The notes under the pieces were generated by a model, which saw only the letters and a list, made by a program, of their open reading frames with translations, searched no databases and was not told the origin of the DNA. 64,000 nucleotides of DNA from Streptomyces sp. NL15-2K (lineage in GTDB: Bacteria > Actinomycetota > Actinomycetes > Streptomycetales > Streptomycetaceae). The stretch spans positions 930,001 through 994,000 of the forward strand of contig NZ_CP130630.1 in assembly GCF_030551255.1 (NCBI RefSeq), in the 5' to 3' direction. Position numbers and translations under genes: made by a program. Each line of letters starts with the position of its first letter. Position 1 is the stretch's first letter. Shown piece after piece: positions 29,724 through 42,090 of this stretch.

Positions 29724-30170
29724 TCAGCCCGGCGGCAGCCGCCTGGCCATCTGCAGGTGCGCCAGCAGCCAGCCGCCCGACTCGGCCGCCACCCAGACCC
29801 GGCTGACGGCGGCCTGGATGACGAACGGGGTCAGTTCCGGCACGAAGGCGACCCGCATCTCCTGCAGACAGCTCACCACGGCCGTGGTGCCGAATCGCCC
29901 GACAGTCACGTCGTAGGTGTCCACCTGACTGGTCCGGCCCAGGCGGGCCGCGTACCGCAACCAGTCGTCCACACCATGGATGTGGCCCACCGCCGAGTGC
30001 ACGACCACGCAGTCGGGATGCATCAGGGCACGAAGGCTCTGCTCCGGATCCGGGAGCGTCTGTGCGGCGAGCCATGCGGCCTCGGCCTCCTCGACCGTGG
30101 CCGGTGCGGGGGCAGGGGCCGGGTCGGGGCGGTCCGTCGCTGCTGTCGCCTTTGTCGATGAGTCGGTCAC
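29724..30170 (-). CDS. NTF2/SnoaL-like protein of the second Rieske operon
   Basis: A 148-residue protein with a Pro/Ala-rich N-terminal extension (about residues 10-25) followed by an NTF2-like domain: WLAAQTLPDPEQSLRALMHPDCVVVHSAVGHIHG, then GTTAVVSCLQEMRVAF and VWVAAESGGWLLAH. Its GTG start overlaps the stop of the reductase gene (GTGA), so it is translationally coupled to the oxygenase system. It is shorter than, and only loosely similar to, the NTF2-like gene of the padR operon. A GC-rich hairpin overlaps its stop codon near 29697-29743 and may terminate transcription from both sides. Confidence 0.8.
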   Translation of the reverse strand: MTDSSTKATAATDRPDPAPAPAPATVEEAEAAWLAAQTLPDPEQSLRALMHPDCVVVHSAVGHIHGVDDWLRYAARLGRTSQVDTYDVTVGRFGTTAVVSCLQEMRVAFVPELTPFVIQAAVSRVWVAAESGGWLLAHLQMARRLPPG

Positions 30171-31120
30171 AGTTCAAGCTCCAGGATCGGGGTCCTCGAC
30201 CGCGAGGAGCACGGGGTGAACAGTCCCTCCGCGCGCTCCTCGTCGGTCAGGACGTCGTCTCGGTGATCGGGCTCGCCGGCACGCACCCGCACGATGCACT
30301 CGCCGCAGATCCCCTGCCCGCACGAGTACGGGGCCTCGACCCCGTTCGCCAGCAGGACGTCGAGGACGCTCTGGTCCTCGGAGACGAGGTATTCCGCTCC
30401 CGTCGAGGACAGGCGCACGGTGAAGCCGCCCCCGTCGGGCTCCGCGGCGGACGGCGAGGCGCTGAAGCGTTCCTTGTGCAGGGCGGACGCGGGCCATCCC
30501 AGCTCGGCCGCCCGTCCCAGCACGTAGTCCATGAACCCACCGGGACCGCAGACGTAGACCGCGGTGTCGGGGGCGGGCTCCCCCAGGTCGCGCCCCGGGT
30601 CGAGGAGCTGCTCCGGCGCCTGGTCGTCGAAGTGGAAGGTGACCCGCGGATGTTCCTCCAACTCGGCGAGGAAGGCCGCCTCGCTCCGGCTGCGCACGCA
30701 GCAGTGCAGGTGGAAGTCGCCGCCGGCGGCGTCGAGGGTCTGGGCCATCGACAGCAGCGGAGTGATGCCGATGCCACCCGCGAGGAGCACATGCCGACGC
30801 GCGGACGTCAGGCCGAAGCGGTTCCGCGGTGCGGCGATGCGCAGCGTGTCGCCCTCGGCGAGGGCGTGCATGGCGCGTGAACCGCCGCGCGACGCGGGCT
30901 CGTTGAGCACCGCGAGCCGGTACTGCTTGCGGGTGCCCGGAGGTCCGCACAGGGAGTACTGCCGGATCAGTCCCGCCGTACCGACAGTTACGTCGATGTG
31001 GGCGCCGGGCTCGTACTCCCACAGCTCGCCGCCGTCGGCCCGGGCGAGGTCGAAGACCGCGATTCTCGGCGTGGCGTCGTACCGGGCCACGACGACCGCG
31101 TCCGTCCAGGTGGTGCTCAC
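30167..31120 (-). CDS. VanB-like oxygenase reductase (flavin, NAD and 2Fe-2S domains)
   Basis: A 317-residue reductase starting at GTG 31120, seven bases after the Rieske oxygenase stop. The flavin-binding RQYSLCGPPG, the NAD-binding LAGGIGITPLLSMAQ and VCGPGGFMDYV, and the C-terminal [2Fe-2S] ligands CGQGICGEC with a distal FTPC are all present. It belongs to the same phthalate dioxygenase reductase class as the proteins at 16.9 and 41.0 kb. It most likely feeds electrons to the Rieske enzyme encoded just upstream. Confidence 0.9.
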   Translation of the reverse strand: MSTTWTDAVVVARYDATPRIAVFDLARADGGELWEYEPGAHIDVTVGTAGLIRQYSLCGPPGTRKQYRLAVLNEPASRGGSRAMHALAEGDTLRIAAPRNRFGLTSARRHVLLAGGIGITPLLSMAQTLDAAGGDFHLHCCVRSRSEAAFLAELEEHPRVTFHFDDQAPEQLLDPGRDLGEPAPDTAVYVCGPGGFMDYVLGRAAELGWPASALHKERFSASPSAAEPDGGGFTVRLSSTGAEYLVSEDQSVLDVLLANGVEAPYSCGQGICGECIVRVRAGEPDHRDDVLTDEERAEGLFTPCSSRSRTPILELEL

Positions 31121-31127
31121 GCCTCGG

Positions 31128-32432
31128 TCACGCCCCTGCCGCCACGTCCGGGGCGCTCGGGGTCGGGACAAGCTCGCCCTCTTCCTCCCGCCGGATGAAG
31201 AGACCGGCCTCCACGCGGCGGACCGGATCGCCGGGAGCGCCGACGCCGAGCGGGGTCCGTCCGGCCTCGACGTCGTCCAGCATCGTGCGCAGCATGCGCC
31301 GGAGCATGACGACGCCCTTGTCGGAAGGCGCCAGGGTCTCCTCGGAGTGCTGGGTGATGTCGCCCTGCGAGCGCTGGGCCTCGTAGTCGCCGGGGAAGCG
31401 CTGCTTCTCCTCGTCGGTCAGCTCCCAGCCGTCCTTGCCGTTCTGCTTGATGCCGAACATGAAGGAGGTGGCCCGCTCCGGGCCGGCCGCGCGGATCGAG
31501 AAGACCAGGCGGTGGTGTGTGTCGTCGGCCGGGACCACCCAGATCAGCATGTCGTTGCGGCCGTCGGGCGTGGACTTGACGAAGTTGGGCAGGGCGACGA
31601 TGTTCGGCAGCATGCACTGCGCCGTCCACTCCAAGTCGACGAGCGCACCGTCGGGGCCCTTGGCGTCCTGGTAGCGCCAGACGTACCCCACGCCGAGGTC
31701 GGTGCGGTGGTAGGTGGTGCGCTCCGCGGCGGTGCGGTGGTCGTAGTAGCTCTCGGGAAAGCCGATCGTCCCGGTGCCCTCGAACTGGTACCCGCTGTGG
31801 TTGGAGTGCAGCCACGCCGCGTGCACGGGGTCGACGGCGTTCTCGAACAGCTGGAGCCAGTTGTAGTCCTGCTCCAGGCCGACGACCTCGGCGCCGGGGA
31901 CCATCCAGCTGGTGCAGTAGCTCTCGCCCTCCCCGAGGGGCTCCAGGCTGTCGAAGCGCGGCAGTGGGGGTTTGAGCTCGGGCGGGCCCATATAGACGAA
32001 GACCAGGCCGTACCGCTCCTCCACCGGGTACCACGGCTGACGTGCGAGATTGCGACGGCGGCCGCCGTCGAGTTCACAGGCCTGGTCCAGGCAGTGGCCC
32101 TGCACGTCGAACTTCCAGCCGTGGTAGCAGCAGCGGATGCCGTCCTCTTCGACGCGGCCGAAGAAGAGGCTGCTGCCGCGGTGCGAGCACCGCTCGAAAA
32201 CGACGCCGGGGCGGCCCTGGCCGTCCCGGAAGACGATCAGGTCCTCGCCCAGTAGGCGGGCGCGGTGCGGAACATCGCTGGTCAGGGCGGTGGAGCTGGC
32301 GATCGGCTGCCAGTAGCGGCGCAGTGCCTCGCCCATGGGCGTGCCAGCGCCGACCTCGGTCAGGCGGGCGTCATGAGAGGAGGGCTTGCGCCCGTAGCCG
32401 GTACCCGTGTCGGTCACGGTCGTGTCGGTCAT
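31128..32432 (-). CDS. aromatic ring-hydroxylating/O-demethylating Rieske oxygenase
   Basis: A 434-residue oxygenase. The Rieske ligands are Cys82/His84 in CSHRG and Cys101/His104 in CCYHGW. The catalytic domain has NWLQLFENAVDPVHAAWLH, with the bridging Asp and two iron-ligating His residues. ATG 32432 is used; an in-frame ATG at 32453 is possible, but the GAGGAG ribosome site fits the later start. It resembles the phthalate/phenoxybenzoate dioxygenase-type alpha-only oxygenases more than VanA. Reductase and NTF2-like genes follow in one operon. The substrate is probably a substituted benzoate or aryl ether; this is inference. Confidence 0.88.
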   Translation of the reverse strand: MTDTTVTDTGTGYGRKPSSHDARLTEVGAGTPMGEALRRYWQPIASSTALTSDVPHRARLLGEDLIVFRDGQGRPGVVFERCSHRGSSLFFGRVEEDGIRCCYHGWKFDVQGHCLDQACELDGGRRRNLARQPWYPVEERYGLVFVYMGPPELKPPLPRFDSLEPLGEGESYCTSWMVPGAEVVGLEQDYNWLQLFENAVDPVHAAWLHSNHSGYQFEGTGTIGFPESYYDHRTAAERTTYHRTDLGVGYVWRYQDAKGPDGALVDLEWTAQCMLPNIVALPNFVKSTPDGRNDMLIWVVPADDTHHRLVFSIRAAGPERATSFMFGIKQNGKDGWELTDEEKQRFPGDYEAQRSQGDITQHSEETLAPSDKGVVMLRRMLRTMLDDVEAGRTPLGVGAPGDPVRRVEAGLFIRREEEGELVPTPSAPDVAAGA

Positions 32433-32835
32433 GATCAACCATCTCCTCGGCATTGAGGCAGGGGGACGCGTGGCTGAGGGCCACCGGCGGATAGTGGTGG
32501 CGAGCCTGCGGCCGAGGCCCTTCCCCGGCTCGGGCAGACGCGGCAGGCGGTGCGGCCCACGTGGCGCTTTAGCCGTTGTACGACTCTGATGAAAAACTGT
32601 CAATGGCTTCGACCTGCTTTGATGAATTACTTGCAGGCCTCTGTTGAATCAATGAGAGCCCTGTTACGTTGAGCCTGCGCCGAGGCAATGAGCCGGTCGC
32701 GGACGTACTGCCGCCTCGCGATCACATCTGAGAACACGCCGCGCGAGTGACTGCCTCCCGCGCTTCCCGCACCTCAGCCTCCACCGCGCGTTCGTACCAG
32801 GCCCCGAAGGAGACGATGATGTCTGGACCTTCCGC
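32433..32835. promoter_or_regulatory. divergent Rieske / GMC-operon control region
   Basis: This 403-base gap separates two divergent operons and is locally A/T-rich around 32580-32670. It contains CCTGC (32613-32617) and GCAGG (32633-32637) as an inverted pair 15 bases apart, the palindrome TTGAATCAA at 32644-32652, and AATCAATGAGAG at 32647-32658. The last differs by one base from the tandem motif in front of the P450 operon at 42.06 kb. No gene was seen. Confidence 0.6.
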
Positions 32836-34509
32836 ATGAGCGCCGGGCACGGCGCCGAGTACGACTACATCGTCGTCGGCGCGGGCACGGCCGGCTGTGT
32901 TCTTGCCGCGCGACTGTCCACCGACCCAGGCACACGCGTGCTGCTGATCGAGGCCGGCCCGCCCGCCGATCGCGGTCTGCTCGTTCAACTGCCCCTGGGA
33001 GTCGGGCTGTTGTCAGGGCGCAAGGACATAAGCTGGGGATACGAGACGGAGCCCGAGCCGGGCCTCAACGGCAGATCCATCCCCGTCCCGCGCGGCCGGC
33101 TGGTCGGCGGCACCGGATCGATCAACGGCTCGACCCATGTCCGCGCTCACCGCCTCGACTACGACGACTGGGTCAAGTCCGGTGCCACCCACTGGGGTTG
33201 GGATGACCTACTGCCCTACTTTCGCCGCTCGGAGAGCAGTTGGCGCGGGGACACCGAGCACCACGGCGGGTATGGACCCGTCACCGTGTCGACCTCCGTC
33301 CGACGAGGCCCCTTCGGCCGGCGTCTCGACCGCGCCGCCCGCTCACTGGGCATCGAGTTCCCCGACGACACCCAGAGCGGGGACCCCACCGGAGCAGGCC
33401 AGATCGAGAACGCCATCCACCGCGGCCGACGGCACAGCACCGCCGCCGCCTACCTGCGCCCCGCGCTACGGCGACGGCCCAACCTCACCCTGCTCACCGG
33501 GGTGCTGGTGGACACGCTCGTCCTCGAGGACGGACGCGCCACCGGCGTCCGGGTCGTGAAGGGCGGACACGATCGGACGATCCGGGCCGCCCGCGAGATC
33601 GTGGTCTGTGCGGGCGTCTACAACTCGCCGCAGCTGCTGATGCGTTCGGGCATCGGACCGGCGGATCACCTGCGCGACAGCGGCATCGAACCGGTGGCGG
33701 ACCTGGTCGGCGTCGGCGCCAATCTCCAGGATCACCCGGCGGCACCCGTGCTGTTCGACGTCAAGGATCCGGTGACCTTCCACGAGCACCTGCGCGCCGA
33801 CCGGGCGGCGGTGGGCGCGCTCCGCTGGCTCGTCACCGGGAACGGTCCGCTCGCGCAGATGCCGGAGTTCCTCTCCGCGTACATCCGCACCCGCCCCGAC
33901 CTGGACCGTCCCGACGGGTTCCTCGGCATCCTGGCCGGCGGTTTCGGCGCCCGGCCCTGGTTCCCCGGCATACGCCCGCTGAAGGACCGCCACTGCGTGG
34001 CCCTCAACGCCGTCGCGACCCCCCGCAGCCGCGGCGAGGTCCGGCTGCGTTCCGCCGACCCGGCCGCGGCTCCGCGCATCACCTTCAACCTGCTCACCGA
34101 GCCGGAGGACGTCGCCGCCCTGCGGGAGACGGTGCGTACCACGCTGGCCATCCTGCGCAGTCCCGAGGTCGCCCCGATGATCGGCGCGGAACTCGCACCG
34201 GGCCCCGATGTGCGCACCGACCAGGACTTCGAGCGCTATCTGCGGGAGACCGGCTACTCCGCCAACCACGCCTGCGGCACCTGCGCCATCGGCACCTCCG
34301 AGAACGCCGTCGTCGACCCCGAACTCCGGGTGCGCGGCATCGCCGGACTGCGCGTCGTCGACGCGTCGGTCCTGCCGAGCGTGCCCGGGGCGAACATCAA
34401 CGCCACCGTCATCGCCGTCGCCGAGAAGGCGTCGGACCTGATCCGCGGGGTGCCGGTGGCCGGTTCCGGGGTCACCGGAACCCCGCTTCGTGAGAGGACC
34501 GCAGGATGA
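32836..34509 (+). CDS. GMC-family FAD-dependent oxidoreductase (choline dehydrogenase-like)
   Basis: A 557-residue flavoprotein. The FAD dinucleotide-binding motif is YDYIVVGAGTAGCVLAARL at residues 9-27, followed by the GMC signatures GRLVGGTGSINGSTHVR and GVYNSPQLLMRSGIG. The C-terminal substrate domain includes NHACGTCAIG, with the catalytic His, and DASVLPSVPGANINATVIAVAE. GMC enzymes oxidise alcohols or aryl alcohols. It is the first gene of a tightly coupled six-gene operon and diverges from the second Rieske oxygenase, which suggests an aromatic alcohol or ether-derived substrate. The natural substrate is not known. Confidence 0.9.
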   Translation: MSAGHGAEYDYIVVGAGTAGCVLAARLSTDPGTRVLLIEAGPPADRGLLVQLPLGVGLLSGRKDISWGYETEPEPGLNGRSIPVPRGRLVGGTGSINGSTHVRAHRLDYDDWVKSGATHWGWDDLLPYFRRSESSWRGDTEHHGGYGPVTVSTSVRRGPFGRRLDRAARSLGIEFPDDTQSGDPTGAGQIENAIHRGRRHSTAAAYLRPALRRRPNLTLLTGVLVDTLVLEDGRATGVRVVKGGHDRTIRAAREIVVCAGVYNSPQLLMRSGIGPADHLRDSGIEPVADLVGVGANLQDHPAAPVLFDVKDPVTFHEHLRADRAAVGALRWLVTGNGPLAQMPEFLSAYIRTRPDLDRPDGFLGILAGGFGARPWFPGIRPLKDRHCVALNAVATPRSRGEVRLRSADPAAAPRITFNLLTEPEDVAALRETVRTTLAILRSPEVAPMIGAELAPGPDVRTDQDFERYLRETGYSANHACGTCAIGTSENAVVDPELRVRGIAGLRVVDASVLPSVPGANINATVIAVAEKASDLIRGVPVAGSGVTGTPLRERTAG

Positions 34510-34928
34510 GGGAGCCCCTGACCTACGCCATCGCGCACGGCGCGGCCGAGGCCGCGCTGGACGCCGCCCGGGCCGGTGGCGCGCGCATCTGCGTGGTGGT
34601 CGTCAACCGCGGGGGCACCACCAAGGTGCTGCTCAGTGACGACGGAGTCGGCCCCATCGGGGTCGAGACCGCGCGCCGCAAGGCTTACACAGCCGCCGTC
34701 ACCGGCATGCCGACCGCGGCGTTCGCCGAGTTCGCGGCGTCCCCCGCGATGGCGGTCGCGCCCGTGCACCTCGTCGACGCCGGCCTCCTCCCAGTGCCGG
34801 GCGGGGTGCCGATCACCGTGGACGACGGCGAGGTCATCGGCGGAATCGGGGTGGGTGGCGCCGACGGGGCCACCGACGACCGTCTCGCGGTGGAGGCGCT
34901 GAAGAGCATCGCGGCGCTGCTGGCATAA
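34506..34928 (+). CDS. GlcG/HbpS-like (DUF336) protein
   Basis: A 140-residue protein whose ATG overlaps the GMC stop codon (ATGA). The core ICVVVVNRGGTTKVLLSDDGVGP, then RRKAYTAAVTGMPTAAFAEF and the terminal GGIGVGGADGATDDRLAVEAL are diagnostic of the GlcG/HbpS family. Members bind haem in some cases and often neighbour redox enzymes such as glycolate oxidase or alcohol dehydrogenases. No signal peptide is present, unlike HbpS, so it should be cytoplasmic. Probably an accessory to the GMC oxidoreductase. Confidence 0.85.
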   Translation: MREPLTYAIAHGAAEAALDAARAGGARICVVVVNRGGTTKVLLSDDGVGPIGVETARRKAYTAAVTGMPTAAFAEFAASPAMAVAPVHLVDAGLLPVPGGVPITVDDGEVIGGIGVGGADGATDDRLAVEALKSIAALLA

Positions 34929-34978
34929 GCGCGAACACACAAGCTCACCTGACGGGACACCAGCACAAGGAGCAGATG

Positions 34979-36052
34979 ATGATCGAAGACACCCTGGTGG
35001 TCGAGGGCGTGGCCCACGACTACAACTTCCTGACCGAGAACTGCGTCAATCCGGCCTTCGGCCGCGCGATCGGCGAGCACATGTACCACCTGCACGAGAA
35101 ATTCGGCGGGCCCGGCTACGCCGTCGAGAAGTCGCTCTACCTCGACCACGGCGCGGGCGCCGAAACCATCGGGCGGGCGATCCTCGCGGAGAGCCAGTCC
35201 GACATCATCGTCTACCACGAGACCCCGATCTACGGACACTTCCGCGACGGCGGCTCCGCGCTCTCCACCGGCCTCGAGATGCGGGAGCTGTGGCCGAACC
35301 GGGTGCTGGTCTACGGGGCGGTGTCCCCGTTGCGGCCGGGTGCGGTGGACCGCGTCGACGAACTGGTCGACGTGCACCACGTCAACGCTCTCAAGCTCTA
35401 CCCGATCGACCTGGTCGAGGGCCGGGTCACCTCGCTGGACATGAGTGACCCGGAAGTGTGTTTCCCGGTGTTCGAGCGGGCCCAGGAGCGCGGGCTGAAG
35501 GTCATAGGGATCCACAAGGCACTCCCGGTCGGGCCCGGTCCGGCCTCCGCCCTGCGGATCGACGACATCGAGGGGGCCGCGGCGGCGTTCCCCGACCTGA
35601 CCTTCGAGGTGGTGCACGGCGGGCTGGCGTTCGTCGAGGAAACAGCCATGTTGATGGAGTGTGCCCCGAACGTCATGGTCAACCTGGAAGTCACCTCCGC
35701 TCTGGCGCGCACGGCACCGCGCCGGTTCGCCGAAGCGATGGGAGCCTTCCTCGCCGTACCCGGCGGGGCCAGGCGCATCATCTGGGGCACCGGAGTCATC
35801 GCGGCCCATCCGCGCCCGCTGATCGAGGCGTTCTGGGATCTCGAAACACCGCAGGACCTGATCGAGGAACGCGGCGTGGAGCCGCTGACCAGGGAAGTGA
35901 AGAAGGCCATCCTCGGCAGCAACTTCCTGCGTCTGCACGGCATCGACGAGGACAAGTTGCGGACCACGATCGCCGGCGACGAGTTCGACACCACCGAGCT
36001 GGCACCGCCGTGGGGCGGGAAGGTCCAGCCCGAGCCGGTGGCGGTGGCGTGA
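34979..36052 (+). CDS. amidohydrolase-fold protein of the propane-monooxygenase-operon type, metal ligands depleted
   Basis: A 357-residue TIM-barrel protein; ATG 34979 is chosen over 34976 because of spacing to AAGGAG. The barrel landmarks NALKLYPIDL, IGIHKALPVG, FPDLTFEVVHGG and ILGSNFLRLHGID match, from memory, the amidohydrolase encoded in rhodococcal and mycobacterial propane monooxygenase operons. Two usual metal ligands seem lost: the early HxH is VAH, keeping only the second His, and the late G(S/T)D is GTG in IIWGTGVI. It may therefore not be a metal hydrolase at all. The MIP18-like gene follows with a one-base overlap, the same pairing as in those operons. Confidence 0.8.
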   Translation: MIEDTLVVEGVAHDYNFLTENCVNPAFGRAIGEHMYHLHEKFGGPGYAVEKSLYLDHGAGAETIGRAILAESQSDIIVYHETPIYGHFRDGGSALSTGLEMRELWPNRVLVYGAVSPLRPGAVDRVDELVDVHHVNALKLYPIDLVEGRVTSLDMSDPEVCFPVFERAQERGLKVIGIHKALPVGPGPASALRIDDIEGAAAAFPDLTFEVVHGGLAFVEETAMLMECAPNVMVNLEVTSALARTAPRRFAEAMGAFLAVPGGARRIIWGTGVIAAHPRPLIEAFWDLETPQDLIEERGVEPLTREVKKAILGSNFLRLHGIDEDKLRTTIAGDEFDTTELAPPWGGKVQPEPVAVA

Positions 36053-36453
36053 TGAGCGGCGTCACCGAGGACCGCGTCCGGAACGTGCTCAACGGGATCG
36101 TCGACCCGTGCAGCATCACCGCGGGTGTCCCGGCCGGGATGGACGACATGGGGCTGATCACCGGCATCCAGGTGCGCGATGACGGCTCGGGCGGCCGGCG
36201 GATCAGCGTGACGTTCGGACTCACCGACCCGACCTGCATGCTGCTGGGCTCGTTCGCCAACGAGGCCCGCGAACGGCTCTCCGCGCTACCGGGCGTCACC
36301 GGCGTCGACGTCACGCTGGACCACGAACTGGAGTGGACCGAGGACAGGTTCGCCCCGCACTATCGACAGCGGCTCGCCGAGCACCGCGAGGGGAGGCGTC
36401 GTGACCTCCCTCTCCTGGCCGTGACCACGAGGGGACGAGCCGGTGACCAGTGA
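36052..36453 (+). CDS. MIP18/DUF59 (PaaD-like) metal-sulfur assembly protein
   Basis: A 133-residue protein. ATG 36052 shares its first base with the upstream stop (TGATG). The motif IVDPCSITAGVPAGMDDMGL, then FGLTDPTCMLLGSFANEARERL and GVDVTLDHELEWT, places it in the MIP18/DUF59 family, whose members help load iron-sulfur or other metal sites. The DPCS and DPTC cysteines are conserved. A charged tail (HYRQRLAEHREGRRRDL) follows. It overlaps the next gene by 11 bases. A likely role is maturation of an iron enzyme in this region; the Rieske oxygenase is the nearest candidate. Confidence 0.85.
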   Translation: MSGVTEDRVRNVLNGIVDPCSITAGVPAGMDDMGLITGIQVRDDGSGGRRISVTFGLTDPTCMLLGSFANEARERLSALPGVTGVDVTLDHELEWTEDRFAPHYRQRLAEHREGRRRDLPLLAVTTRGRAGDQ

Positions 36454-37483
36454 GACCGCACAACAGCCGCCCAGCTCCGACCTCACGGCTGTGCTGGCGA
36501 ACAACGCCGACGTCATGGGCCGTTTCATGGAAGGGCTCAGCCGGGCGCCCCGTCCTCCCGAGAGGGTCGACCCTGCTCCCGTCCGGGTGGTGCGCGACCT
36601 CGTCTTCAGCACTCCGCCCGGCGCCGAGGGCCGTACGGAGCTGCGGATGGACCTGTACCTGCCGCGGTCCGCACCGACCCCCACCCCCGTGATCGTGTGG
36701 CTTCCGGGTGGCGGCTGGCGCACTCAACGGCGTGGTTACGGCCCGCAGTTGACACGACTCTTCGCCGAACGCGGGTACGCCATGGCGGACATCGAGTACC
36801 GGTCCTCCGAGATCTCTCCCTGGCCGGCCCAACTGCACGACGTGATCGCCGCATTGCGCCACCTGCACGACATCGCGGACACCTATGGCTTGGACCCGGC
36901 GTCGATCGGGCTCTGGGGCAGCTCGGCCGGCGCGCACCTGGCACTGCTCGCGGCCTTCGCGGGCGACGCCGACGGCTCCCTCGACACCGGCAGCTCCCTC
37001 GCGGCGCCCGGCGTACGAGCCGTGGTGGCGGGCTATCCGCCCACCGACCTGCTGCATCTCAACGACGACTCCCTGCCCGGTGGAGTGCTGGGCGTGGATC
37101 CCTCCGACCCGGCCTGGGGACTGCTGGGCGGACACCCGTCGGACCGGACCGCCACCGCCGTCGAGGCCAGCCCGGCCCGGCAGGCCCGCCCTCATGTCCC
37201 GCCCGTGCTCCTGCTGCACGGCGACGCCGACCTCCTCATCGGCCCGGCACAGAGCCGCCGACTCCACAACGCGCTGATCGCCGCGGGCGCCGAGTCCCAC
37301 CTGCTGCTGGTGCACGGCGCCGACCACGGCTTCCTCAACACCGGCGCCTGGGAACTGAACCCCATGACGGCCACCGTGCTGTCCTCCCGCACTCCGGACG
37401 CCGAACGCTCCGTGCTGCTGACCCCCGCGCTGATCGAGCGCTTCTTCGACCGCCACCTGCGAACGGACCCATGGAATGCCTGA
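36443..37483 (+). CDS. alpha/beta hydrolase, hormone-sensitive-lipase-like
   Basis: A 346-residue hydrolase starting at GTG 36443 within the end of the DUF59 gene. The oxyanion region is VWLPGGGW instead of HGGG, the nucleophile elbow is LWGSSAGAHLALLAAF, and the Asp and His of the triad are in HGDADLLIG and HGADHGFL. These features fit the bacterial hormone-sensitive lipase/carboxylesterase group. No signal peptide is seen, so it is probably cytoplasmic. In this operon it may hydrolyse an ester or lactone generated by the oxidative steps. Confidence 0.85.
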   Translation: MTSETAQQPPSSDLTAVLANNADVMGRFMEGLSRAPRPPERVDPAPVRVVRDLVFSTPPGAEGRTELRMDLYLPRSAPTPTPVIVWLPGGGWRTQRRGYGPQLTRLFAERGYAMADIEYRSSEISPWPAQLHDVIAALRHLHDIADTYGLDPASIGLWGSSAGAHLALLAAFAGDADGSLDTGSSLAAPGVRAVVAGYPPTDLLHLNDDSLPGGVLGVDPSDPAWGLLGGHPSDRTATAVEASPARQARPHVPPVLLLHGDADLLIGPAQSRRLHNALIAAGAESHLLLVHGADHGFLNTGAWELNPMTATVLSSRTPDAERSVLLTPALIERFFDRHLRTDPWNA

Positions 37484-37910
37484 CACACCACCGCGCTACG
37501 ACGACATCGGCCACGCCCTCTCCCGTCTCGCGCTCGCCGCAGTCTTCGTCTCCGGAGGCCGCCACGTCTGGCAGCACCCGGACGGCCCCGCGCAGGGGGC
37601 GGAAACCTTCCTGAAGCGGTGCCGCCGCGCGGTGCCCCTCCTGGACCGGTTCACCGACCGCCAACTGGTGCGCGCCAACGCGGCCGTGCACATGACCGCC
37701 GGAGCGACACTCGCGGCCGGCATCGCCCCCGCGGCCTCCGCCACGGCACTCACCGGCTCGCTCGTGCCCACGACCCTCGCCGCCTTCCCGTTCTGGGCCC
37801 AGCCGGACGGCCCGCAACGCGTGCGCCAGCAGGGCGACTTCCTCAAGAACCTGGCCCTGGCCGGCGGCCTGCTCGCGGTCATGGTCAACAGCGAGCGACG
37901 AACCAAGTAG
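37476..37910 (+). CDS. DoxX-family membrane protein
   Basis: A 144-residue protein with an ATG overlapping the preceding gene's end by 8 bases. Its hydrophobic segments and the motifs LSRLALAAVFVSGGRHVW, LVRANAAVHMTAGATLAAG and GDFLKNLALAGGLLAVMVN match the DoxX family of small integral membrane proteins with four helices. Family members have been linked to quinone or thiosulfate redox chemistry. Here it closes the six-gene operon and could connect the GMC or Rieske redox steps to the membrane; this is inference. Confidence 0.82.
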   Translation: MPDTPPRYDDIGHALSRLALAAVFVSGGRHVWQHPDGPAQGAETFLKRCRRAVPLLDRFTDRQLVRANAAVHMTAGATLAAGIAPAASATALTGSLVPTTLAAFPFWAQPDGPQRVRQQGDFLKNLALAGGLLAVMVNSERRTK

Positions 37911-37979: not shown

Positions 37980-38612
37980 TCAGTAGCCCCGGTCGACCCA
38001 CTCTCGCAGATGTGGAGACTCGGCGCCGATGGTGCTCGGCTCGCCATGGCCGGTGCGGACCACCGTCTCGGGCGGCAGGACGAGGAGCCGGTCGCGGATG
38101 GAGCGGATGATCGTCGGGAAGTCGGAGTACGACCGCCCGGTGGCCCCCGGTCCGCCTGCGAACAGCGTGTCGCCGGTGAACACCGTGCCCAGGTCCGGGG
38201 CGTGCAGCGAGATCGCTCCAGGCGTGTGGCCAGGGGTGTGAAGCACCGTCAGTTCGATTCCGGCCACGGTGATCCGGCGCATGTCCGAGAGATAGCCGTC
38301 CGGCTTCCGGTCGGGGTGGGTGTGCTTCCACAGCAGGCGGTCGTCGAGATGGATCAGGATCGGCGCACCGGTCGCGTCGGCGAGCGCGGGAGCGGCGTCT
38401 ATGTGGTCGTCGTGGCCATGGGTGCACACGATGGCCCGAAGCCGCCGGTCGCCGACGGTGGCCGCGATGGTGTCGGCGTCGTGAGCGGCGTCGATGACGA
38501 TCGCCTCTTCGTCGTCGCCCACGATCCACACGTTGTTGTCGACGTCCCAGGTGCCGCCGTCGAGGCTGAAGGTGCCGGACGTGACCAGATGCTCGATACG
38601 GGCGGCCGTCAC
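37980..38612 (-). CDS. metallo-beta-lactamase-fold hydrolase partner of mycothiol-formaldehyde dehydrogenase
   Basis: A 210-residue hydrolase. The metal motif is [13 protein letters not shown], with further ligands in [13 protein letters not shown] and FTGDTLF and a C-terminal [14 protein letters not shown], as in glyoxalase II-like enzymes. Its GTG start overlaps the dehydrogenase stop (GTGA). In actinomycetes this gene regularly accompanies S-(hydroxymethyl)mycothiol dehydrogenase and is thought to hydrolyse the S-formylmycothiol produced, giving formate and free mycothiol. It is the last gene of the P450 operon. Confidence 0.88.
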
Positions 38613-39694
38613 AGCATGACCACCGAGCGGAGCACGTCGCCCTTGTGCATCCGGGCGAAGGCGTCCTCGACCCCGTCCAGGGCGATCGTCTCGCTGACGA
38701 ACGCGTCGAGGTCCAGACGGCCCTGGAGGTACAGGTCGATCAGCAGGGGGAAGTCGCGGGAGGGCAGGCAGTCGCCGTACCAGCTCGACTTCAGCGCCCC
38801 GCCCCGCCCGAAGACATCCAGCAGCGGCAGTTCCAGCTTCATTTCCGGCGTCGGCACGCCGACGAGGACGACCGTGCCGGCCAGGTCGCGAGCGTAGAAG
38901 GCTTGCTTGTACGTCTCCGGGCGGCCGACCGCCTCGATGACCACATCCGCGCCGAAGCCACCGGTCAGCTCGCGTACCGCCTCCACCAGGTCCCGTTCAC
39001 GTGAGTTGACGGTGTGCGTGGCACCCAAGGATGCCGCGGTGGCTAGCTTGCGCTCGTCGATGTCCACCGCGATGATCTTCGCGGCGCCCGCCAGCCGGGA
39101 GCCCACCACCGCCGCGTCGCCGACGCCGCCGCAGCCGATGACGGCCACGGAGTCACCACGGTTGACCGCACCGGTGTTGATCGCCGCGCCGATGCCCGCC
39201 ATCACGCCACAACCCAGCAGGCCCGCGGCGGCCGGTGACGCGACGGGGTCGACCTTGGTGCACTGTCCCGACGCCACCAGGGTCTTCTCGGCGAAGGCAC
39301 CGATGCCCAGGGCCGGGGACAGCTCGGTGCCGTCGGTGAGGGTCATCTTCTGCTGGGCATTGTGGGTGTCGAAGCAGTACCAGGGCCTGCCGCGCAGACA
39401 GGCCCGGCACTGGCCGCACACCGCGCGCCAGTTGAGGATCACGAAGTCACCGGGCTCGACATCGGTCACACCGTCGCCGACCGACTCCACGACACCGGCG
39501 GCCTCGTGGCCGAGGAGGAACGGGAACTCGTCGTTGATGCCACCCTCACGGTAGTGGAGGTCGGTGTGACACACACCGCACGCCTGGATCCGTACCACCG
39601 CCTCCCCCGGCCCCGGATCGGGGATCACGATCGTCTCGATGCCGACCGGCTCGCCCTTCGCCCGCGCGACGACGCCTCGTACCTGCTGGGACAT
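38609..39694 (-). CDS. S-(hydroxymethyl)mycothiol dehydrogenase (formaldehyde detoxification)
   Basis: A 361-residue zinc medium-chain dehydrogenase. The catalytic zinc motif [13 protein letters not shown] and [12 protein letters not shown], the structural cysteines [15 protein letters not shown], and the NAD loop [19 protein letters not shown] are present. [17 protein letters not shown] and the C-terminal [15 protein letters not shown] are characteristic of the mycothiol-dependent formaldehyde dehydrogenase group. It oxidises the spontaneous adduct of formaldehyde and mycothiol. It sits 42 bases downstream of the P450 in the same operon, consistent with removing formaldehyde released by O-demethylation. 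Confidence 0.9.
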
Positions 39695-39736
39695 TGTTGG
39701 ATTTCCTCACTTCTATGGAATGGACGAGGCAGCTGA

Positions 39737-40951
39737 TCAAGCAGCCGGCTGGACGCGCAGTGGCAGGGACGCCCACGAGCGCAGGGTGTTGTTGGGGTGG
39801 CGGTGCGGTGTGCCGGTGAGTTCCATTCGCTCGACGCGGCGGGCCAGGGCGGTCAGCAGCGCCTCGGCCTCCAGGCGGGCCACGTGCTGGCCGATGCACT
39901 GGTGCAGGCCCATGCCGAAGCCGACATGACCGGAGGGGTCGCGGGTGAGGTCGAAGCGGTCGGGGTCGTGCCAGCGGGCCGGGTCGCGGTTGGCCGCGCC
40001 GAGGAACATGAGGATCTTCGTGTCCGCGGGGATGACTGTGCCGGCGATGGCGACATCGGTGGTGGCGGTGCGGAAGAAGGTCTGCACCGGCGACTGCCAG
40101 CGGACCGCCTCCTCGAACGCGGCTCGCGCCAACTCCGGCCGCTCCCGCAGCCGTCGCCACTCCTCGGGGTGGGTGGCGAAGGCGTAGAGGCAGGCCGCCA
40201 GACCGTGCACGGTGGTGTCGACGCCGGCGGTGAGCAGGGAGCGCACCACCAACGGCGCCTGTTCGTGCGTCAGGTCGCCGCGGTCGGCAGCGTCCCAGAT
40301 CTGCCTTCCGAAGCCGTCCTCGCTCAACGCCTCCCGCTCGCACTGGGCGTTCACCCATACCGACAGCTCCGCCACCCGGTGCGCGTCCGCCGCGACCAGG
40401 TCGTTGCGCGGGCCGAAGGCGTTGAAGGCCATGTTGCCGTACGGCAGGAGGTGCTCCCGGCCGTCCGGGCCGAGGCCCACCGCGTCCGGAAACGCCCGCA
40501 GCGGGAACGCCTCCGCCAGCGCCGCGAAGCCGTCGAACTCGGTTCCTCCGGCGAGGACTTGGTCGACCAGTTCCTCAGCCACGGTGTGCCATGTCTCGCG
40601 CAGGCGACGCAATGCGGGCGGAGCGAGGACCTCCCTCAGCACCCGGCGTGGGGCGTCGTGTCGGGGCGGGTCGGCCTCCAGCAGCAGGCTCGGCGTGCGC
40701 CACGGCTCCTCGTGGCGGAAGTTGGCGAGACCCACGCCCGAACCCGACTCGAAGTGCTGCCAGTCCACCAGGGCGGCGTGCACCTGTTCGTAGCGGGCGA
40801 GCGCGTGGACGTCGTAGCGCGACAGGTACACGACCGGACCGGCCTCGCGCAGGGCCTGGTGCAGCGGTTCGGGTTCCACGAGGACCTCGTGGGCGAACGG
40901 GTCGGCGTCACTGACGGGCGGCACGACGGCACGCTCCAGTGCCTCGGTCAT
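39737..40951 (-). CDS. cytochrome P450, CYP199-like (aryl O-demethylase)
   Basis: A 404-residue soluble P450. ATG 40951 is used, following AAGGAG. The I-helix is LLTAGVDTTVHGL, the ExxR motif is in FEEAVRWQSPVQ, and the haem loop is FGMGLHQCIGQ. Compared from memory with CYP199A4, the 4-methoxybenzoate demethylase of Rhodopseudomonas, it shares GPVVYL, PSLLLEADPP, REHLLPYGNMAFNAFGP and FFRTATTDV, strongly suggesting a para-substituted benzoate demethylase. The reductase gene lies 29 bases upstream and the formaldehyde dehydrogenase gene follows, which fits release of formaldehyde. The substrate remains inference. Confidence 0.9.
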   Translation of the reverse strand: MTEALERAVVPPVSDADPFAHEVLVEPEPLHQALREAGPVVYLSRYDVHALARYEQVHAALVDWQHFESGSGVGLANFRHEEPWRTPSLLLEADPPRHDAPRRVLREVLAPPALRRLRETWHTVAEELVDQVLAGGTEFDGFAALAEAFPLRAFPDAVGLGPDGREHLLPYGNMAFNAFGPRNDLVAADAHRVAELSVWVNAQCEREALSEDGFGRQIWDAADRGDLTHEQAPLVVRSLLTAGVDTTVHGLAACLYAFATHPEEWRRLRERPELARAAFEEAVRWQSPVQTFFRTATTDVAIAGTVIPADTKILMFLGAANRDPARWHDPDRFDLTRDPSGHVGFGMGLHQCIGQHVARLEAEALLTALARRVERMELTGTPHRHPNNTLRSWASLPLRVQPAA

Positions 40952-40980
40952 CGGGGCTCCTTGGGGCAGGTGAAGATATC

Positions 40981-41988
40981 TCAGATGTCGAGGACGAGAC
41001 GGTCGCCGCAGGAACGCGACACGCACAGGAACATGCAGTCGTTCGCCGCCCGTTCATGGTCGGCCAGCACCGAGTCCCGGTGGTCCGGCTGCCCTTCCAG
41101 CACCGTTGTCAGACACGTTCCGCAGGTGCCCTGCTCGCAGGAGGACAGCACGTCCGCACCGGCGCGGCGCACCGCCTCCAGAACCGAGATGTCCGGGGTG
41201 ACGGTGACGGTGTGTCCGGTACGTCGCAACTCCACCTCGAACGGAGTGTTCCGCACCGGCGCGGTCTGCGCGCCGGCGGAGAACCGCTCGACCCGCAGGG
41301 CGTACGGCGGCCAGGAGACGCACGCGGCTTCGACGGCGGCGAGCAGCGGGGCGGGGCCGCAGCAGTACACCTTGGTGTCCGGTCGCGGTGTGCCCAGCCA
41401 GGCCGCCAGGTCCAGCAGCCCGAGCTCGTCCTGCGGGACGACATGCACCCGCTCGCCGTAGGCCGCCGTCAGCTCCTCGCGAAAGGCCATCGACGACCGT
41501 GTGCGCCCGCCGTACAGCAACTGCCAGTCCGCGCCAAGCAGTTCGGCCTGGTGCATCATGGGCAGCAGCGGGGTGATGCCGATGCCGCCCGCGATGAACA
41601 GGTACTTCTCCGACGGCACCAGGGGGAAGTGGTTGCGCGGGCCGCCGACCCCGACGCGGTCCCCCGGACGCAGCCGGTCGTGCACATGAGCGGATCCACC
41701 CCGTCCCGCAGGCTCCCGCAGCACGGCGACCCGGTAGGCGTACGCGTCCCATCGGTCGCCGCACAGTGAGTACTGCCGGACAGCCCCGCCCGGCAGAACC
41801 ACATCGATGTGGGAGCCGGGCGTCCAGTCCGGCAAACGGGCACCGCCCGGGTGGGTGAGGGTGAGTGACACGACACCCTCGGCGATGTCCTCCTTGGCGG
41901 AGACCGTCAGTGTCGCCGCCTTCGTCGGCGTCGGGCGTTCCGCGCCCGCGCCGGACCCGGCGTCCGCAACCAGGCTGGTTCCGACCAC
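40981..41988 (-). CDS. VanB-like reductase, redox partner of the CYP199-like P450
   Basis: A 335-residue reductase. The GTG at 41988 is favoured by GGAGG seven bases upstream. The first 20 residues form a short Ala/Gly/Pro-rich leader, then come the flavin site (RQYSLCGDRW), the NAD region (IAGGIGITPLLPMM, CCGPAPLL) and the C-terminal [2Fe-2S] cluster (CEQGTCGTC, distal FLC). It heads the operon whose second gene is the P450. It is thus the likely single-protein electron donor, in place of the ferredoxin plus ferredoxin reductase usual for CYP199 enzymes. Confidence 0.9.
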   Translation of the reverse strand: MVGTSLVADAGSGAGAERPTPTKAATLTVSAKEDIAEGVVSLTLTHPGGARLPDWTPGSHIDVVLPGGAVRQYSLCGDRWDAYAYRVAVLREPAGRGGSAHVHDRLRPGDRVGVGGPRNHFPLVPSEKYLFIAGGIGITPLLPMMHQAELLGADWQLLYGGRTRSSMAFREELTAAYGERVHVVPQDELGLLDLAAWLGTPRPDTKVYCCGPAPLLAAVEAACVSWPPYALRVERFSAGAQTAPVRNTPFEVELRRTGHTVTVTPDISVLEAVRRAGADVLSSCEQGTCGTCLTTVLEGQPDHRDSVLADHERAANDCMFLCVSRSCGDRLVLDI

Positions 41989-42054
41989 GTTGTCGCCTCC
42001 CGTCGTTGGGTTGCATGCAGGATGCGCGGCGGCGAGGGACGGTCGCGACGGCAT

Positions 42055-42090
42055 TCTCAATCAGTGAGAGACGAAATCAGTGAGAGACGA
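42055..42090. promoter_or_regulatory. tandem 16-bp repeat with embedded dyad, candidate IclR operator
   Basis: AATCAGTGAGAGACGA occurs twice in perfect tandem at 42059-42074 and 42075-42090. The first copy overlaps the dyad TCTCA-ATCAG-TGAGA at 42055-42069. It lies 67 bases upstream of the reductase/P450 operon and just behind the IclR gene, the only regulator beside it. Confidence 0.7.

Follow-up and report, generated by a model that had tools for sequence, protein, structure and literature searches.

The amidohydrolase family PF04909 holds more than 100,000 proteins that are largely uncharacterised, according to PMC10811679. Relatives of the protein described here, those of the Prm type, are located in SDIMO operons, as indicated in two reports (PMC6849523, PMC9213486). 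In SDIMO group V/VI operons (prm, mim) the gene of a homologous amidohydrolase is directly followed by a MIP18-domain gene, and this arrangement is also that of the window, as we call the whole stretch of 64,000 nucleotides from Streptomyces sp. NL15-2K that was analysed. In the open-access literature the amidohydrolase/MIP18 pair turned up only as labelled genes in figures and text on SDIMO operons, and passages of PMC10401708 added nothing on MIP18. Here, we report a PF04909 clade of bacteria and haloarchaea that has its own Fe-S-carrier-type gene, the kinds of carrier matching the active-site residues.

Organisation of the locus

The amidohydrolase and MIP18/DUF59 genes lie in an operon with four further genes, opposite a divergent Rieske gene (Table 1), and the GMC, HbpS/GlcG-type and weak DoxX genes as well as the Rieske gene were placed as in the preliminary description of this DNA. 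For the amidohydrolase the start at 34979 is favoured over that at 34976, because AAGGAG is found 6 nt upstream (34967-34972) and most homologues open M-I-(E/D). The product of this reading frame belongs to PF04909 (Amidohydro_2), scoring 61.4 bits against a cut-off of 26.4, and both its AlphaFold2 model (pLDDT 95.1) and its fold matches, including the structures 8fun, 8sm6 and 8sm8, describe a TIM barrel. It contains the motifs NALKLYP, IHKA and VVHGG, with beta-1 reading VEGVAHDYN (V12-A-H14) and beta-8 IIWGTGV (G273). The preliminary reading of these barrel motifs, of VAH replacing HxH and GTG replacing the late Asp motif, and of an overlap with a gene carrying DPCS and DPTC was borne out in the sequence; the overlap is of one base (TGATG), joining the amidohydrolase stop to the MIP18 start.

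By profile and fold the smaller product is a member of MIP18/DUF59 (PF01883). It is not SufT proper by the NCBIfam cut-offs, since it reached 40.4 of 143.4 bits for TIGR02945 and 38.1 of 202.6 bits for TIGR03406, and it has DPCS where SufT proper has DPE.

Table 1. Genes and key codons of the locus, in window positions
Feature	Position	Strand	Remark
2Fe-2S flavin reductase behind the Rieske gene	30167..31171	-	profile match
Divergent Rieske oxygenase	31128..32603	-	in 12/15 Streptomyces-type loci
GMC oxidoreductase (choline-dehydrogenase-like), same operon	32836..34509	+	in 13/15 Streptomyces-type loci, window counted
HbpS/GlcG-like protein, same operon	34506..34928	+	in 14/15 Streptomyces-type loci
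Amidohydrolase-fold protein (PF04909)	34979..36052	+	357 aa; alternative start 34976 gives 358 aa (P0003)
Val12	35009..35011	+	site of first HxH His in Prm-type; His in 0/192 of window clade vs 120/120 Prm-type
His14	35015..35017	+	second His of HxH, kept, just past beta-1; 192/193
His81	35216..35218	+	end of beta-2; 189/193; Gln in Prm-type, 116/120
Lys140	35393..35395	+	on beta-4; 193/193
His180-Lys181	35513..35518	+	end of beta-5; 193/193 and 192/193
His214	35615..35617	+	just past beta-6; 193/193; for the loci set this partly follows from the search pattern, which contained this His
Glu238	35687..35689	+	after beta-7; 193/193; Ala in Prm-type, 115/120
Gly273	35792..35794	+	expected place of late metal Asp; Gly 192/193 vs Asp 120/120 Prm-type
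His278	35807..35809	+	loop after beta-8; 192/193
MIP18/DUF59 protein, Cys-type (DPCS ... TDPTC)	36052..36453	+	133 aa; PF01883, 32.0 bits vs cut-off 23.5
Cys20 of MIP18 protein (DPCS)	36109..36111	+	invariant in 44 rows; Glu in Prm-type partners
Cys62 of MIP18 protein (TDPTC)	36235..36237	+	invariant in 44 rows
BD-FAE-type alpha/beta hydrolase, same operon	36443..37483	+	profile match
DoxX-like small protein, same operon	37476..37910	+	DoxX 19.5 bits, under cut-off 23.6

Active-site residues

An alignment of 193 members of the window clade was compared with a Prm-type set consisting of the best 120 of 4,134 matches to one monooxygenase-operon gene, each at least 73% identical to this query. 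Judged by the classical PF04909 metal ligands (H/E/D-x-H on beta-1 and Asp on beta-8), the window protein lacks the classical site, having Val12 and Gly273 in these places; the comparison itself is based on the Prm-type sequences. Both losses were upheld by the alignment and are clade-wide, beyond chance. Both residues, first His and late Asp, persist in all 120 Prm-type amidohydrolases, and the window protein therefore falls into another clade of this family; in the tree the two clades separate with an SH-aLRT of 100. Compared with the Prm/Mim clade, the window protein is without the first His of HxH, the SDY motif and the Glu-type MIP18 partner.

Eight His, Lys and Glu residues lying on the active-site side show 98-100% conservation (189-193 of 193), and three of these, His81, Glu238 and His278, are newly conserved relative to the Prm-type. 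The haloarchaeal sequences inspected show the same motifs around His14, His81, Glu238 and His278. To judge from these alignments, the active site of the window clade looks rewired, not dead, and the earlier proposal of a non-catalytic scaffold does not agree with such conservation. An Fe-S cluster held by the amidohydrolase's own Cys was also considered and rejected: no Cys position reaches 60% conservation in the alignment of the window subtype, so that a conventional Cys-bound cluster inside the amidohydrolase is unlikely.

Pairing and partner types

Pairing of the amidohydrolase with a small carrier gene is near-obligate. A gene of the Fe-S-carrier type was found at most 400 bp away from 120 of 124 amidohydrolase genes, and the genes of a pair are tight and often overlap. 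The four unpaired genes comprise one at a contig edge (L150), one with MIP18 one gene off (L077), and two without a partner in reach (L083 and one L029 gene); for the NifU-type amidohydrolase of L029, the CxxC pattern found no NifU gene in reach. The amidohydrolase gene is doubled in four loci (L024, L028, L051, L054).

Among the 120 pairs the partners were 97 Cys-type MIP18, 15 Glu-type MIP18 and 8 NifU-type proteins, and partner type sorts with the beta-1 and beta-8 residues without exception. Amidohydrolases that have both first His and late Asp go with a Glu-type partner (15/15 with a partner), and all 105 paired ones that lack the first His go with a partner carrying either the Cys of DPC (97) or the CxxC of NifU (8). 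In the tree, this sorting rests on few events, namely two partner changes, two beta-8 changes and one change of the first His.

The two-gene unit recurs across many bacteria and haloarchaea, where it is also carried on plasmids. In 246 genomes of one class, with scoring confined to the 8 (A1) or 18 (A2) best first-look places of each, the nine with strong amidohydrolase matches were the same nine that had the best Cys-type MIP18 matches; the partner profiles had been built from neighbours, and the whole-genome search was free to match elsewhere. The two genes were adjacent in all nine, in reversed order in three. The distances of the two proteins were correlated (Mantel r 0.55 for n 47, against at most 0.18 in 999 permutations), which is what a pair moving as a unit would show.

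Eight relatives carry a NifU-type carrier in place of MIP18, three of them (L220, L224, L225) closely related. One such partner is the sole PF01106 gene found in its genome (G235), and another, annotated NifU in Shinella, overlaps the amidohydrolase gene by 4 bases. In Staphylococcus aureus, loss of the DUF59 protein SufT is partly corrected by Nfu from a multicopy plasmid (PMC4982691), and the two carriers can therefore partly replace each other.

Interpretation and genomic contexts

We give a probability of roughly 0.55 to the reading that the two genes encode a catabolic metalloenzyme and its private iron or Fe-S maturation factor. The likeliest client of the small gene is the adjacent amidohydrolase, and the neighbours of the pairs are of catabolic kinds, including importers, hydrolases, dehydrogenases, cupin and FAH genes; some gene names, gentisate dioxygenase, thiolase and CoA ligase among them, were in part assigned by inspecting the sequences, with a Pfam check on a subset. 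The amidohydrolase-fold protein would be a catabolic enzyme with a rewired metal site, the first His of beta-1 and the Asp of beta-8 having been replaced. Candidate new ligands are His14, His81, His180, His214, Glu238 and His278, and Lys140 and Lys181 may lie in or near this putative site. Genetic linkage and motif suggest that the MIP18-type protein, with its two invariant Cys, may deliver iron or an Fe-S unit to the amidohydrolase; we infer that the latter is its client, binds a metal, probably iron, and performs a catabolic reaction. The clade-specific carriers (Glu-type MIP18, Cys-type MIP18 and NifU-type) would each go with their own variant of the amidohydrolase site.

Alternatively, though we regard it as doubtful, the small protein may stay permanently bound as a subunit and contribute its Cys to a metal or Fe-S site formed between the two proteins, in exchange for the residues lost from the amidohydrolase. 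The sorting of residues and partners in all 15 Glu-type and all 105 DPC or CxxC pairs, the tight gene arrangement and the correlated distances are consistent with such a shared site. The independent switches are few, however, no natural fusion of the two proteins was found among the ORFs searched, and in S. aureus SufT and Nfu take part in maturing Fe-S proteins (PMC4982691). It is likewise a tentative thought that these pairs constitute an undescribed, widespread iron/Fe-S TIM-barrel class with ligands traded across the interface, in which the partner would gain a Cys (DPE to DPC) or be swapped for a NifU-type protein as His and Asp were lost, making the "assembly factor" part of the active site.

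In the preliminary description the pair was proposed to mature or hold iron oxygenases, in this locus the divergent Rieske enzyme, with the amidohydrolase serving as a scaffold without catalytic function; we consider this unlikely. In its favour, 12 of 15 Streptomyces-type loci have the Rieske gene, G085 (L216) has one immediately behind the pair, and the Prm-type relatives reside in SDIMO operons (PMC6849523 and PMC9213486). The pair does recur near Rieske (6/38) and GMC (4/38) genes without a binuclear monooxygenase, as had been anticipated, when 38 dereplicated contexts were sorted with seed-based profiles; when single loci are counted, those of the Streptomyces type make up 12 of 17 Rieske and 13 of 16 GMC cases. 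P450 occurred in 12/38 contexts and some oxygenase of the kinds tested in 24/38, a figure that has no background rate and hence is not evidence either way. Against this view, 14/38 contexts were without any oxygenase of the kinds tested and 21/38 without an iron oxygenase of these kinds, and the rewired site is strictly conserved. The binuclear monooxygenase profile PF02332 had no match in the window genome, leaving the pair without the adjacent monooxygenase of the Prm/Mim clade, and none in 99 searched loci, the same profile recovering 19 of 20 controls; it matched in just 8 of 47 pair-bearing genomes. Eight genomes have a Prm-type pair and zero PF02332 matches. The pair is general, occurring also outside propane-monooxygenase operons as the earlier proposal implied, but a general service to oxygenases was not supported. 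The recurrence of the unit suggests a kind of metal-dependent catabolic enzyme rather than an oxygenase helper. A single oxygenase client was also considered and rejected, the contexts being too mixed: Rieske genes (Streptomyces and others), P450, FAD and luciferase-like monooxygenases, gentisate-like sets, sugar-type ABC importers and Myxococcus loci.

Less probable still, and conceived by analogy, the amidohydrolase itself may be oxygen-activating, as a distant analogue of the amidohydrolase-related dinuclear oxygenases (ARO) AibH2, SfbO and PtmU3, with the carrier supplying its iron. Least of all do we expect a pseudoenzyme of purely structural or regulatory function, in which the absence of both classical ligands would reflect decay, as the active-site-side residues are kept in 189-193 of 193 sequences and four of their motifs extend to haloarchaea.

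Our observations point to a cofactor chemistry of the amidohydrolase barrel that has gone unrecognised, and gene order may here reveal which protein a MIP18/DUF59 protein serves. This would bear on the unassigned amidohydrolase and DUF59 genes of propane and acetone monooxygenase operons, a practical gap for reconstitution in other hosts.

Comparison with known systems

Set beside the metal ligands usually given for ACMSD and the gamma-resorcylate and dihydroxybenzoate decarboxylases (PF04909), the window protein is without the beta-8 Asp and the first beta-1 ligand and has a dedicated small partner gene. The TIM-barrel protein 3irs_A (BB4693 of Bordetella bronchiseptica, described as uncharacterised) is only 15% identical and shows no His-Lys at beta-5 in the alignment. 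AibH1H2, SfbO and PtmU3 share family and fold with the window protein, and the occasional doubled amidohydrolase genes recall AibH1/AibH2, but their ligand set is another and the partner here is an Fe-S-carrier-type gene, not a Rieske ferredoxin. Membership in the ARO group, defined by O2-dependent hydroxylation at a Mn/Fe or Fe2 cofactor and by a dinuclear site of three His and three carboxylates (D25, H27, H211, E265, D337 and H340 of AibH2, mapped by motif), was considered from the fold matches to 8fun, 8sm6 and 8sm8 and rejected, as the Asp of DxH is Val and the late Asp is Gly. At beta-6 a weak alignment sets a His of the window protein against a Glu of 8sm7, and Glu238 could be a displaced carboxylate of an ARO-type site.

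The small protein resembles the SufT/MIP18 (DUF59) Fe-S assembly factors in fold, Pfam family and a conserved Cys near the second half, but SufT has DPE and a single conserved Cys, while the window MIP18 has DPCS, two invariant Cys and a tie to the amidohydrolase gene. In the Prm-type pairs the MIP18 protein differs from that of the window in having DPE(L/I), and the three read from end to end are long proteins extended at the C-terminus; the amidohydrolases of both types have Lys140, His180, Lys181 and His214 in common.

Operon organization and genomic context

The window comes from a 12.4 Mb, Streptomyces-like genome whose closest relatives are Streptomyces. Its amidohydrolase (PF04909) is encoded in a single unit of six genes on the forward strand, 32836-37910, with overlaps at four of the five junctions; in the sequence TGATG, the amidohydrolase stop and the MIP18/DUF59 (PF01883) start have one base in common.

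Features of the operon and its surroundings in the window
Feature	Position	Strand	Arrangement
Rieske oxygenase and its reductase	31128-32603, 30167-31171	-	divergent from the six-gene unit
GMC oxidoreductase	32836-34509	+	first gene of unit
HbpS/GlcG-like	34506-34928	+	second gene of unit
Amidohydrolase	34979-36052	+	third gene of unit
MIP18/DUF59	36052-36453	+	fourth gene of unit
BD-FAE alpha/beta hydrolase	36443-37483	+	fifth gene of unit
DoxX-like	37476-37910	+	sixth gene of unit
Metallo-beta-lactamase-fold protein, Zn-alcohol dehydrogenase, P450, second 2Fe-2S reductase	37980-42060	-	beyond the operon

Among 15 Streptomyces-type loci including the window, some of which end at contig ends, MIP18 was present in 15, HbpS/GlcG in 14, GMC in 13 and Rieske in 12. 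Elsewhere the pair keeps other company: luciferase-like monooxygenase, a cupin read as gentisate dioxygenase, FAA hydrolase and GST in Paraburkholderia and others, sugar-type ABC importers in Mesorhizobium, GMC and FAH genes in Caballeronia, a PAS sensor kinase in Myxococcus, and P450 clusters. It is also carried on plasmids of Rhodococcus oxybenzonivorans, Bradyrhizobium, Sphingopyxis and haloarchaea. HbpS/GlcG-like genes lie upstream of the pair in the window and in loci L035, L049, L051, L054 and L076, and so both in Streptomyces and in alphaproteobacteria, and a P450 is also found near the pair in L010, L011, L015 and L017. In L213 (genome G108) the order is MIP18-amidohydrolase followed by an acetamidase/formamidase gene (PF03069), a possible hint of an amide-releasing step.

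The preliminary description proposed that the pair is a maturation or holding module for iron oxygenases. For the context count, 86 loci were reduced to 38 clusters at 70% identity (L053, with no aligned row, was left out), a cluster being credited with a feature when any one member had it; the profiles were seed-based and run on simple ORF calls, in stretches sometimes ended by contig ends. The counts, which come without a background rate and therefore show neither enrichment nor its absence, were P450 12, FAD monooxygenase 11, HbpS/GlcG 10, Rieske 6, luciferase-like 6, sugar-type binding protein 6, GMC 4, gentisate-type cupin 2 and binuclear monooxygenase 0. With these profiles, every oxygenase kind tested was absent from 14 of the 38 clusters and the tested kinds of iron oxygenase from 21. 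The proposal is supported in part: Rieske (6/38) and GMC (4/38) neighbours do recur, and 21/38 clusters have no tested iron oxygenase, all as raw counts.

A binuclear monooxygenase (PF02332) was likewise found in none of 99 loci (the 79 loci of the pairing survey plus 20 from the same class, among which were Prm-type and NifU-type pairs) with a profile that recovered 19 of 20 controls. PF02332 was present in 20 of 246 class genomes, including two of the nine bearing the pair, and in 8 of the 47 genomes that supplied the remaining loci; the window genome gave no match. L202, L204, L205 and L207 hold a triad of Prm-type amidohydrolase, Glu-type MIP18 and Zn-alcohol dehydrogenase-like gene (the dehydrogenase identified by Pfam in L207, the remainder by reading the sequence) with no binuclear monooxygenase beside it; prm accessory genes therefore occur alone. 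L202 also has a divergent GAF/Fis-type activator (Pfam).

Exchanged active-site residues

The loss of metal ligands claimed in the preliminary description, whose named residues were all found in the window sequence, is borne out by alignment with Prm-type relatives, the kind known from propane-monooxygenase (prm/mim) operons. Position 12 was His in none of 192 scored clade members and position 273 was Gly in 192/193 (193 sequences in all: 111 homologues from databases, each 300 aa or longer, plus 82 genes taken from the loci, two overlapping samples that both count the window gene), whereas His12 and Asp273 were kept in 120/120 of the Prm-type set, the best 120 of 4,134 matches to one gene from a monooxygenase operon. 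Both were also present in 14/14 Prm-type genes from class genomes, six of which have Ala for the second His. Against the same best 120 of 4,134, the clade has His81 (189/193) where the Prm-type has Gln (116/120), and Glu238 (193/193) where it has Ala (115/120); His278 (192/193) is the third residue that is new relative to the Prm-type. His14, Lys140, His180, Lys181 and His214 are common to both, although around His214 the 82 locus genes are conserved partly by construction, since the locus search pattern contained that His. In the predicted structure (mean pLDDT 95.1, pTM 0.93), strands beta-1 (8-13), beta-2 (75-81), beta-4 (138-141), beta-5 (176-180), beta-6 (209-213) and beta-7 (233-236) stop at, or within two residues of, conserved positions, and this end of a TIM barrel is the active-site side. 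The conserved residues may converge on one metal.

Pairing with a small carrier-type gene

In 74 of 79 loci (78 from species genomes plus the window) a DPCS-type MIP18 gene followed on the same strand at a distance of at most 500 bp, and in four of the other five one lay close by. Relatives from plasmids and from 246 class genomes were then added, and removal of duplicates of the same places took 147 entries to 124 distinct amidohydrolase genes. For 120 of these a partner lay no more than 400 bp away: 97 Cys-type MIP18 (DPC motif), 15 Glu-type MIP18 (DPE) and 8 NifU-type (CxxC). Of the four exceptions, L077 has MIP18 at 864 bp with a hydrolase gene in between and L150 lies at a contig end; the others are L083 and one of the two amidohydrolase genes of L029. 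In L051 and L054 a single MIP18 gene lies between two amidohydrolase genes, with an HbpS/GlcG gene ahead of the trio.

The association also held reciprocally in the 246 class genomes, scoring in each search being confined to the top 8 or 18 first-look places of a genome. Nine genomes matched the amidohydrolase profile strongly (seven with E at most 2.7e-109, two with at most 2.4e-91; the next-best genome reached 9.0e-77), and the nine genomes ranked highest by the Cys-type MIP18 profile, all with E at most 1.2e-19, were the same nine. The two genes adjoin in all nine, with reversed order in G102, G176 and G108, the subtype with Glu at beta-8. The next MIP18 matches, G040, G058 and G086 (E 1.0e-17 to 1.4e-16), were DPE-type, and no such amidohydrolase was found in the stretch fetched around them. 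Distance matrices of the two proteins correlated at r 0.55 (n=47; permutation maximum 0.18).

The kind of partner sorts with the active-site variant. Amidohydrolases with the first His and a beta-8 Asp had Glu-type MIP18 in 15/15 genes having a partner; those lacking the His, with beta-8 Gly (one Ala), had Cys-type MIP18 in 93/93; and the 12 lacking the His with beta-8 Glu had Cys-type MIP18 upstream in four and NifU-type in eight. When 58 dereplicated genes were placed on a tree (a quick search with SH-aLRT as its only support measure, columns in question left out), two changes of partner, two at beta-8 (Ala counted with Gly) and one of the first His were enough; the sorting, though clean, therefore depends on a small number of events. 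Most telling are the NifU cases. Two of the eight seeded the NifU profile, which then recovered the other six within 400 bp, and three of the eight are closely related to one another. The sole PF01106 (NifU) match of G235 adjoins the amidohydrolase, and in Shinella the amidohydrolase overlaps by 4 bases a small gene annotated as NifU family. In Staphylococcus aureus, loss of the DUF59 protein SufT is partly corrected by Nfu from a multicopy plasmid, according to excerpts of PMC4982691.

L024 and L028 each hold two family amidohydrolases in one cluster, one partnered by a NifU-type gene and the other by a Cys-type MIP18 gene, FAH and GMC genes being present in this group; such doubled genes possibly encode two-subunit enzymes. 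A NifU-type gene is also present in L031 and L085. L208, from an actinobacterium with a 1.3-Mb genome (G145), has a variant pair (HTG at beta-1, DPEI MIP18) directly behind what reads from sequence as a sugar-type ABC importer.

Proposed role and known systems

The amidohydrolase was initially taken as a possible non-catalytic scaffold; the simplest explanation of the pair is instead an enzyme and a dedicated metal or Fe-S delivery protein. The amidohydrolase would be the enzyme, MIP18 would deliver its metal or cluster, and the two together would form a single step reused in many catabolic settings. Cys20 and Cys62 are invariant in Cys-type MIP18 (44 aligned rows); as excerpted, PMC4982691 gives one strictly conserved Cys for SufT and two or more for most known carriers, so the two invariant Cys suit a carrier role.

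Among the open-access papers listed we found no account of the window-type clade or its Cys-type MIP18, nor of carrier exchange for NifU or active-site residue exchange in the clade. The doubled amidohydrolase genes with different carriers in L024 and L028 recall AibH1H2 with its two subunits, but the window-type amidohydrolase does not match the ligands of AibH2 as given in excerpts of PMC7782822. Published prm/mim-type operons already include an amidohydrolase gene together with one for iron-sulfur assembly (PMC6849523 and PMC9213486, both in excerpt). Another actinobacterium has the amidohydrolase-like protein of its Mim cluster at 3.2% of the proteome, bracketed by the monooxygenase subunits MimA (1.8%) and MimC (3.8%) (PMC7176365, in excerpt), an abundance more like that of an enzyme than of a helper.
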